DNA of 64,000 nucleotides from NCBI GenBank assembly GCA_947455645.1, contig CANGPA010000003.1, forward strand, positions 1 to 64,000, in the 5' to 3' direction. The notes beneath the pieces were generated by a model. The model searched no databases. It worked only from the letters and a program-made list of their open reading frames with translations, and had not been told where the DNA came from. The position numbers and the translations under genes were made by a program. Shown in pieces: positions 17,801 to 30,535 of the stretch. The stretch is from Hyphomicrobiales bacterium (GTDB lineage Bacteria > Pseudomonadota > Alphaproteobacteria > Rhizobiales > Beijerinckiaceae). Within the stretch, counting starts at the first letter, position 1; each line of letters opens with the position of its first letter.

Positions 17801-19171
17801 CTACCGGTGTTCAGAAAGCGTGCGTCCCGCCAACCATTCCTCACGCACCTGAAGCTCTGTCTCTTGCTCGAAATGCGCGCCACGCAGCGTTTCAAAATCT
17901 TCAGGAGATACGAGACGGCTTAGCGCCCAGATTGCCGCACCGCGCACCAAAGCGGATGCATCGCCGAGAAGCCGCTTTGCATCGCCCACAAGCGATGCAT
18001 CACCCGAATTACCCATCGCAATCAAAACATTGCGCATGAACCGGTCGCGCCCTGTTCGCTTGATCGGCGTGCCCGCAAAAAAAAGACGAAATGCTGCATC
18101 ATCAAGACGCGACAATTCCGAGAGGCGCGGGGCCTTCAAATCGGCGCGCGCTTGCAGTTTTACCTCACGCGCGGTTTGCGCAAACCGGTTCCACGGGCAC
18201 ACCGCCAGACAATCATCGCAGCCAAAAATCCGGTTACCGATTTTGGGGCGCAGCGCGCGATCAATCGGGCCCTTATGCTCGATGGTCAGATAGGCAATGC
18301 ATTTCGTCGCATCGAGCTGATAGGGCTTCGGAAACGCGTCCGTCGGACAAATCGAGAGGCACCGCGTGCAGCGCCCGCAATGGTCGGGGCTCGGCTCGTC
18401 CGGCTCGAGTTCAAGCGTTGTGTAGATCGCGCCAAGAAACAGCCACGACCCATGCGAGCGGGAGACGAGCACCGTGTGCTTGCCTTGCCAGCCGAGGCCT
18501 GCCGCAGCGGCAAGCGGCTTCTCCATCACAGGCGCGGTGTCGACAAACACCTTCACCGCCGGTGGCGTTGGCTCATTATGACACGATCGGACCTGATCAC
18601 CGGCATTATGAGATGAGAGCCTATCGCTACCCAGCTCCAAAGTATCAGATCGCGCTGTTTTGGTATCTGATCGACCAGCCTTTGCGACCTGAACACCATG
18701 GGACTCGATCATAAAGCGGGCGACGCGCTTGAGTTTGGCTTTTATGACGTCGTGATAGTCGCGCGACTGGGCATAGACCGAGACCGCGCCATGCTGTTTT
18801 TTTTCAATGATTTCAAGGGGATCATGGTCGGGCGCGTAGGACATGCCGACCATCACAATCGAGCGCACAGCGGGCCAGAGCCGGGCCGGATCAGCGCGCT
18901 CGGCCACCCGGTCGGCCATCCAGTCCATCGAGCCGTGATAGCCCTGCGCCAACCACTCTCTAAGTCTCTGATCGGATTGAGGAATTGCGTCGGGTGTGGT
19001 GACGCGGACGGCGTCGAAACCCTCCGCTTTGGCCCGTTGCAGGACCGCCTCTTTGAGCGCCCCGGGGCTCAGAAATCGAGGTCCGCGTAATGCAGCGTCG
19101 GATCCATGCCCGGCACGCGATCGGCGAGCAGCGGGCGGAACGATGGCCGCGATTTTATCTTTTGATACCAA
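17801..19171 (-). CDS. queG: Epoxyqueuosine reductase with an in-frame insertion
   Basis: Cobalamin- and 4Fe-4S-dependent reductase for the last step of queuosine tRNA modification. Motifs present: DYHDVIKAKL, VDTAPVMEKPLA, GLGWQGKH, the clusters CGRCTRCLSICPTDAF and FGCDDCLAVCPWN, and a C-terminal HEAT-like region. Residues about 162-204 (DNA about 18560-18688) are an insert absent from the E. coli enzyme, which runs straight from the helix into FVDSAP; it contains the element also found in alkB. There is no ATG near the conserved start: the frame opens at a TTG (19171, GAGG 10 bases upstream) inside the upstream gene, and a CTG at 19072 overlapping that gene's stop is the only other candidate before the homology. 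Confidence 0.92.
   Translation of the reverse strand: MVSKDKIAAIVPPAARRSRAGHGSDAALRGPRFLSPGALKEAVLQRAKAEGFDAVRVTTPDAIPQSDQRLREWLAQGYHGSMDWMADRVAERADPARLWPAVRSIVMVGMSYAPDHDPLEIIEKKQHGAVSVYAQSRDYHDVIKAKLKRVARFMIESHGVQVAKAGRSDTKTARSDTLELGSDRLSSHNAGDQVRSCHNEPTPPAVKVFVDTAPVMEKPLAAAAGLGWQGKHTVLVSRSHGSWLFLGAIYTTLELEPDEPSPDHCGRCTRCLSICPTDAFPKPYQLDATKCIAYLTIEHKGPIDRALRPKIGNRIFGCDDCLAVCPWNRFAQTAREVKLQARADLKAPRLSELSRLDDAAFRLFFAGTPIKRTGRDRFMRNVLIAMGNSGDASLVGDAKRLLGDASALVRGAAIWALSRLVSPEDFETLRGAHFEQETELQVREEWLAGRTLSEHR
18605..18676 (-). repeat. In-frame palindromic element, copy A (inside queG)
   Basis: On the coding strand this 72-base stretch includes TCAGATACC and CTGATACTT spaced 21 bases, with inverted arms ATCAGAT / ATCTGAT. 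It encodes the part of the queG insert starting GRSDTKTARSDT and ending at N189. Hand alignment to 30140-30211 without gaps gives 44 of 72 identical bases and 11 of 24 identical residues. Interpreted as a copy of a gene-tolerated repeat. Confidence 0.6.
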
Positions 19172-29334: not shown

Positions 29335-29849
29335 TGGAAATTCGAAAGCTTCATGCCTTAGAAGTTCGCAAAAGAATTCTAGAGCTTGCAGTCATACTAG
29401 ATGATTGCGTCAAAAATGGCGCATCTGTTAGCTTTATGAATCCCTTTGACCTAGGGGAAGCCTCTAAATTTTATGAGGAAGTTGCGTCAAAGTGCGTTGC
29501 TGGCGAACTTATGCTTTTTGCGGCAATTTTAGATGGCAAGGCTGTGGGGACGGTTCAACTCGCCCCGAGTCAAAAGCCGAATCAGCCGCATCGCGCAGAC
29601 CTCGTAAAAATGTTAGTCCATTCGAAACATCGTCGACTGGGTATAGGCCAAAAACTGCTTGATTTGGTTGATTTCGAAGCAAAAAGTTATGGAATCACAC
29701 TGATTACGCTGGATACGGCGGCGGGGAGTGATGCGGAGCGATTATATTTGCGGGCGGAATATCAAAAAGCGGGTACAATTCCCGATTATGCGCTGTGGCC
29801 AGACGGTGGTTATTGCGACACGACTTATTATTATAAACGCATCGGATGA
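29334..29849 (+). CDS. GNAT-family N-acetyltransferase
   Basis: Protein of 171 residues with the acetyl-CoA binding A-motif VHSKHRRLGIGQKLLDLV and the following GITLITLDTAAGSDAERLY strand, typical of GNAT enzymes. The substrate is unknown. The start ATG (29334) shares its A with the gpmA stop, and the stop overlaps the alkB start, so gpmA, this gene and alkB are coupled. Confidence 0.88.
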   Translation: MEIRKLHALEVRKRILELAVILDDCVKNGASVSFMNPFDLGEASKFYEEVASKCVAGELMLFAAILDGKAVGTVQLAPSQKPNQPHRADLVKMLVHSKHRRLGIGQKLLDLVDFEAKSYGITLITLDTAAGSDAERLYLRAEYQKAGTIPDYALWPDGGYCDTTYYYKRIG

Positions 29850-30535
29850 GGACGACGGTCGCGGTTAAACCCGGTGTTTTGTATTTTCCGGGATATTTTG
29901 ATGTCACCGAGCAGACGGCCCTACTTCACGAAATCAACAATAATGCCAATGAGTTAGAGTGGTTCCAGCCGACCATGCCGCGTTGGGGGACGCCGTTTTC
30001 CGTACGCATGATGAATTTCGGACCGCTCGGCTGGGTGTCGGACAAAAGTGGCTATCGATACCAAGCAACGCATCCCGCGTGCGGCCGCCCATGGCCGCCA
30101 ATTCCAGCAATTTTACTCGATTTATGGCGTACGCAACAACGGTGTTCAGATACTGAACACGGTAGAACAGATACTCCGGAAGGCCCTTGCAATAAGCTAT
30201 CATCGCTTAATTCCGAGCCCGAAGCCTGTCTCGTCAATTATTACGGGCCGAAAGCCAAAATGGGCCTTCATCAAGACCGCGATGAGGAGGATTTGACCGC
30301 GCCGGTTGTGTCGGTCTCGCTCGGCGACACGGCGCTGTTCCGCATCGGGACCGATGAGCGCAACGGACCAACCCAATCCCTCAAACTACACTCGGGCGAC
30401 GTGCTGGTCTTTGGCGGACCCGCACGTCTGGCGTTTCACGGCATCGACCGGATCTACCCCGGAACCTCCCGGCTCCTGCCGGAGGGCGGTCGAATCAATC
30501 TAACACTCCGGCGGGTGACGCGACCGATGCCCTGA
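29846..30535 (+). CDS. alkB: AlkB-type 2-oxoglutarate/Fe(II) DNA dioxygenase with an in-frame insertion
   Basis: Removes methyl groups from 1-methyladenine and 3-methylcytosine in DNA by oxidation. The 229-residue protein has iron ligands H142 and D144 (LHQDRDE), the later His in AFHGIDRI and the 2-oxoglutarate-binding Arg residues in RINLTLRR. Residues about 97-123 are an insert between LLDLWR and EACLVNYY, segments that I expect to lie close together in AlkB; it carries the element also found in queG. The iron-site residues are intact, so activity is probably kept. Confidence 0.92.
   Translation: MRTTVAVKPGVLYFPGYFDVTEQTALLHEINNNANELEWFQPTMPRWGTPFSVRMMNFGPLGWVSDKSGYRYQATHPACGRPWPPIPAILLDLWRTQQRCSDTEHGRTDTPEGPCNKLSSLNSEPEACLVNYYGPKAKMGLHQDRDEEDLTAPVVSVSLGDTALFRIGTDERNGPTQSLKLHSGDVLVFGGPARLAFHGIDRIYPGTSRLLPEGGRINLTLRRVTRPMP
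30140..30211 (+). repeat. In-frame palindromic element, copy B (inside alkB)
   Basis: Begins with a perfect hairpin GTGTTCAG / CTGAACAC around ATA (30142-30160). It has TCAGATACT and ACAGATACT spaced 21 bases, the same arrangement as copy A, and ends in CTATCATCGCTTAAT, matching copy A's CTCTCATCTCATAAT at 12 of 15 positions. It adds about 27 residues with adjoining bases, in frame. Confidence 0.6.

Follow-up and report, generated by a model that had tools for sequence, protein, structure and literature searches.

The window, the whole 64,000-nucleotide stretch analysed here, is contig C3 of its own genome, G000 (2.3 Mb in 156 contigs), and was compared with 11 congeners, G001 to G011, and with genomes outside the genus. 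It carries two enzyme genes on opposite strands, each with an in-frame insert in a loop. The features are listed below; gene names, here and throughout, are our reading of translations, and E-values in the list come from R3, a model of the repeat trained on twelve copies.

17804..19171, minus strand: queG, host gene (epoxyqueuosine reductase by reading), an open reading frame with matches in 40 of 41 genomes, its own included
18578..18679, minus strand: QueG insert, 34 residues relative to the G001 protein (global alignment; 30-protein alignment)
18601..18699, minus strand: putative family copy in queG, direct units plus end block TAGCGATAGGCTCTCATC (R3 E 5.1e-15, a training sequence; copy alignments)
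18569..18694, minus strand: predicted disordered QueG loop, residues 135-176 of the 431-residue model (AlphaFold2, pLDDT below 50)
29846..30535, plus strand: alkB-type dioxygenase gene (by reading), host gene, an open reading frame with matches in 32 of 41 genomes, its own included
30128..30199, plus strand: AlkB insert, 24 residues relative to the G006 and G010 proteins (global alignment; 30-protein alignment)
30116..30215, plus strand: putative family copy in alkB, with GTGTTCAGATAC, AACAGATAC and TTGCAATAAGCTATCATC (R3 E 5.1e-15, a training sequence)

The sequence-only reading had placed both inserts at sites where the protein families normally have short loops, and comparison with relatives supports this for both genes. 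For QueG we aligned loci from 30 of the 40 matching genomes, its own included, with only a partial match in G007. The loop at the insert site is 0 to about 8 residues long in G001 and in genomes outside the genus, about 13 residues in G002, G004 and G011, longer and of other sequence in G003, G005, G006, G008, G009 and G010, and longest in G000. An AlphaFold2 model built on 26 sequences places residues 135-176 between a helix (114-132) and a strand (181-185), and the low pLDDT of this loop is to be read with the fact that few aligned homologues of the insert also depress pLDDT. Among the 30 AlkB loci aligned from the 32 matching genomes, only those of G000, G003 and G009 have an insert. The alignments thus bore out a length difference in both genes; as to target duplications, none was established. 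The statement that both inserts remain in frame and leave the metal sites intact holds in so far as both genes are open and the eight QueG cysteines are invariant over 26 proteins; the AlkB ligands were located by eye in the translation, with the motif that we take to mark them. By eye, the alkB inserts of G003 and G009 have at both ends a direct repeat like TTTCGATARTCC, a possible target duplication.

The two segments are alike. Aligned without gaps, positions 18605-18676 (minus strand, queG) and 30140-30211 (plus strand, alkB) are identical at 44 of 72 bases, the encoded peptides at 11 of 24 residues, and GATAC recurs at a spacing of 21 in each copy, all as first described. When both strands of the window were scanned, the runner-up position had 36 matches, and the maximum among about 4000 random pairs was 39. 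Contrary to the possibility that the alignment might be no better than shuffled sequence, neither unit-preserving nor codon shuffles attained 44 (0 of 20,000 each). The similarity reaches about 84 nt, with a Smith-Waterman score of 42 against 32 for the best of 19,661 null pieces. That the match is a chance likeness of two unrelated loops would agree with the searches that began from this pair, in which DNA queries met nothing further and a peptide profile run in 12 genomes scored well only on the two window copies. It is nevertheless extremely improbable, given that the random-pair, shuffle and Smith-Waterman controls all lie below the observed match, by which chance similarity was ruled out, and that a diverged family was later met with models of more copies.

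Searches of the genome and its relatives with the queG/alkB pair, at the DNA and peptide level, gave no convincing third copy. The peptide profile returned nine matches at E<=10; the next after the two window copies, at G009:C83 (E 0.016), falls on the antisense strand of a TPR-like gene and was put down to chance. The queG copy had one 19-base match in a phage collection and none in a plasmid collection, and neither a DNA-uptake-type word nor any other abundant word that might underlie the loops was conspicuous in the window or in stretches of five relatives. R1, a sequence-only model of the two copies, gave six sub-threshold matches in G000 against 0-2 in each of the 11 congeners, and its matches at C25, C114, C81 and C105 of G000 and at G004:C11 lie outside evident genes and have a common architecture. 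Further models were then trained on seven copies (R2) and on the twelve of R3, and since 150 of several hundred first-look candidates were scored per genome, the counts that follow for both are lower bounds. At E<=1, R2 gave at least 17 matches in G000, six of them trained and 11 untrained (at 10 loci, with C21 at 8.7e-8), at least six in G004 (one trained), at least 0-3 in each of the ten other congeners and at least 0-3 in each of 13 genomes outside the genus. We also ran an HMM of eleven copies on 780 kb of G000 DNA that includes pieces chosen because they already matched, and it gave 18 matches below E 1 (nine of them seeds) against 0 in reversed DNA, and 28 against 1 below E 10; for the relatives (1.18 Mb) the real and reversed counts were one and one below E 1, and 11 and 2 below E 10. 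At E<1e-3, R3 found at least 17 loci in G000, ten of them trained, against at least 0-4 in each of the 11 congeners. At least seven of the G000 loci are untrained, and four of these are non-coding by reading. In the congeners the R3 counts were at least four in G004 (one trained), at least three in G010 (one trained) and at least one each, in sodB, in G005, G006 and G008, with none in the remaining six among the candidates scored. All model E-values are rough, and iterated models favour their own training sequences. One candidate, C89, was set aside as chance, rising only from 16.0 to 17.4 bits under the better model (R2 to R3). A search of Rfam with eight loci (seven with family copies, and C89) gave 0 matches at E<=1.

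The expectation that a comparable family exists in this genome was therefore right in one respect: stepwise models met a dispersed family to which the two inserts belong, while the build expected of it, that of Rickettsia palindromic elements (RPEs), was not found. The further suggestion, that the copies are diverged and the insertion either old or the family variable, agrees with a likeness that varies widely from pair to pair. The queG copy scores z 9.5 with alkB and with C25 and 1.6 with C105 (150 mononucleotide shuffles each), and several pairs, taken by themselves, show no likeness (z from -1.2 upward).

A copy measures about 100 bp and consists of direct 21-22-bp units near GGTTGATGAGGTACTAAAAA, two of them well kept and preceded by a weaker one, then a 12-nt spacer and an end block, TTGCRATAAGCTCTCATC. 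Tandem arrays of 21-22-bp sites are also found as plasmid iterons and as Tn7-type transposase sites, and the family is like these in that its direct units each span about two helical turns and lead into a distinct end block. Judging coding status from open reading frames, we placed 12 of the 17 R3 loci in G000 between genes or at gene edges; the coding loci are queG, alkB, sodB, a photolyase-like gene and a dppC-like gene. At C64 the copy reaches over the called start of a desaturase-like gene, and for C14 and C1:55385 it is uncertain where the edges lie. The copy at G000:C81 (L286:1478-1600) is enclosed by the two arms of a terminator-like inverted repeat (AACAAAGCCGG ... CCGGCTTTGTTTTTTT), with two convergent genes flanking it. 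Near an xseA-like gene, a tandem GGCAGTA array adjoins a weak family copy (L337, just below 17356, G000:C9).

Inverted-repeat arms had been proposed as a common feature of the copies, and this was not upheld. Short inverted arms can be read in each window copy; the folding of both is no better than that of shuffles (z 0.07 to -1.05 in four folds), and an alignment of seven copies has 0 consensus base pairs. A palindrome or hairpin is thus unsupported, and we therefore regard the family as a DNA-level repeat. In the frame of the queG and alkB hosts, ten other copies contain 32 stops, against 18.8 expected from shuffles; this frame is open in one of the ten, against 1.4 in shuffles, and is the most stop-ridden of the six, the best of which has 11 stops and is open in three of the ten copies. 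Alignment gaps shift the frame in a few copies in these counts. The consensus GGTTGATGAGGT reads TGA TGA in the host frame, where queG has CGA TCA and alkB TGT TCA, and the two peptides probably resemble each other in part because both copies are free of TGATGA stops in the same frame. Because of the excess of stops in the host frame, translation of the in-gene copies looks incidental.

These results bear on the resemblance to RPEs that the sequence-only reading had seen. The sections of PMC2229807 and PMC10969869 that deal with RPEs describe stem-loops of 105-146 bp with terminal inverted repeats and an open reading frame, which occur in frame within genes and also between genes. Measured against those sections, the resemblance extends to the choice of sites, since the G000 family is likewise short, dispersed, intergenic and in frame inside conserved genes, and does not extend to the build: the family has direct units, no supported fold and no conserved open frame. 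A family of RPE type that inserts as translatable peptides would account for in-frame inserts in conserved genes and for dispersed copies; we nonetheless consider it very unlikely and do not class the G000 family as RPE, because both the palindrome and the reading frame fail. ERIC, RUP and Correia elements, in the part of PMC2229807 that treats them, have terminal inverted repeats, target duplications and folded transcripts. The G000 family is like these MITE-like elements in being short, dispersed and mostly outside genes. It differs from them as there described in having no supported fold, and in its aligned flanks no terminal inverted repeat or target duplication was visible by eye, with copy borders not fixed. 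We met no description of dispersed direct repeats in the literature on this bacterial group, and an earlier description is possible.

Comparison of four intergenic loci with relatives gave a clear length gain at only one of them, so that insertion as judged by length is otherwise confined to queG and alkB. The gain is at C4, between an hpt-like gene and its convergent neighbour: these stand about 125 nt apart in G000, and in G003 about 30 nt separate the ends of the two matches, with the final 15 residues of one gene left unmatched. The C114 locus is, by eye, about 40 nt longer than in a relative, and the gap that contains C25 differs little in length (about 813 and 778 nt). The dciA-mutY gap measures 130 nt in G000 and 99-147 nt in six relatives that have no other repeats there, and by eye the gap of G003, G008 and G009 holds similar strings. 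As three of the four loci are without clear insertion, copies may have evolved in place; neither a target duplication nor a clean empty site was established. In G006, G005 and G010 (L385, L387 and L383; three of ten genomes) the dciA-mutY gap is enlarged by repeats of the type CCTTCTCCC ... GGGAGAAGG.

The inserts of the sister species are diverged. With the eleven-copy HMM, the queG inserts of G009 and G006 and the alkB insert of G003 rank 3, 4 and 8 in 1.18 Mb, at E 1.3-2.6, which is not significant for any one alone; the queG inserts of G003 and G010 and the alkB insert of G009 are not among the matches listed at E<=30. An HMM of seven sister sequences gave 10 matches below E 1 in 721 kb, against 0 in reversed DNA and 2 in G001; in G000 its first round gave eight weak matches below E 1 (best 0.0076), seven of them at family loci, against 2 in G001. 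A separate dispersed family in the G003 group was rejected, as in those 721 kb this HMM gave the queG and alkB loci and weak matches. An untrained G010 copy at C17:51417 (R3 E 5.3e-6) ends in GGCCGGTTCCGATAATC, close to the GGCCAGTTCCGATAATC of the G006 queG insert. Taken together, these matches weakly suggest that some sister-species inserts are family remnants.

On this basis each of the two window inserts is probably a copy of an interspersed repeat that is short, highly diverged and not palindromic. Such copies would have spread as short DNA patches through some activity, most of those in G000 coming to lie between genes or at gene edges, and in queG and alkB the copy would lengthen a loop in frame. 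The queG and alkB events would be old, given that the corresponding places in sister species hold diverged inserts, and the inserts of the genus at both sites would be old members of one family, which for those of the sister species is likely. One rival account, to which we give a small share of the probability, is that the repeats are putative arrays of binding sites for a DNA-binding protein, operator-like and two helical turns apart, kept by selection within genes as well. It would explain why the spacing is kept despite low identity, why similar strings occur in the dciA-mutY gap of several species and why no RNA fold is supported; by our reading of the flanks, however, orientation and distance to gene starts are inconsistent, and copies also lie between convergent genes and inside unrelated coding sequences. 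Similarly unlikely is that the loops expanded in situ through duplication of 21-nt units, their likeness being due to convergent loop composition and unit length. Both copies do have the 21-nt period, sister loops also look heptad-like, and the G003 QueG loop has repeated units with no family match in the HMM list. Yet the 21-nt units match between queG and alkB (12/21 and 13/21) at least as well as within either gene, where units 1-2 agree at 10/21 and 12/21 and other pairs at 6-9/21; the unit-preserving shuffles likewise count against growth in place, as do the spacer and end block common to intergenic copies.

Some matches within conserved genes are less easily accommodated. The antisense of the 3' coding end of sodB matches R3, untrained, at E 4.3e-10 in G000 (L338:11783-11860, G000:C26) and at E 1.6e-7 to 4.3e-5 in G005, G006, G008 and G010, also untrained, and sodB from another family of the order matches weakly (E 0.0157); the protein is conserved, and the match may reflect the source of the repeat, a codon coincidence or something else. 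An antisense R3 match (3.9e-7) also lies in the photolyase-like gene at G000:C47:6423-6496 (L323), in a segment of native length where G000 is strongly diverged from its relatives. Both are native protein segments with nothing inserted, and together with the dciA-mutY strings they speak against insertion as the sole mechanism. A repeat that copies itself in patches, related to the antisense sodB 3' coding end and spreading both by insertion and by overwriting without change of length, could combine these observations, and we hold it to be a rather remote prospect. If true, it would bring unrelated proteins to share a stretch, inserted in queG, alkB and intergenic sites and overwritten in the photolyase-like gene of G000. 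Rickettsia provides the best-known in-frame repeats in conserved enzymes, and these are palindromic and carry a reading frame of their own. In a Hyphomicrobiales genus, a non-palindromic family that is stop-rich in the frame used and yet lies in frame in two enzymes would mean that repeats can occur in genes without adaptation to translation, and an interspersed repeat of the kind we favour would also illustrate how a peptide pattern becomes common to two unrelated proteins.

In a joint tree of QueG and AlkB without gapped columns, G001 lies outside the rest of the genus, and G000 groups with G002, G004 and G011 (support 92, and 99 in the QueG tree); the AlkB tree places G000 with the G003 group instead (support 75). 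A survey of in-frame inserts of at least 10 residues, blind to insert sequence, covered 115 G000/G003, 52 G000/G001 and 82 G003/G001 pairs and further pairs; apart from queG and alkB, it turned up a single His-rich tract and a single 11-residue insert. Other abundant intergenic words in these genomes are CTCATCCTGAG, TCCTGAGGAGC and TCGAGACGC in G000 and CTGGGTTGCTT and TCGCAATGACG in G003 and G006.
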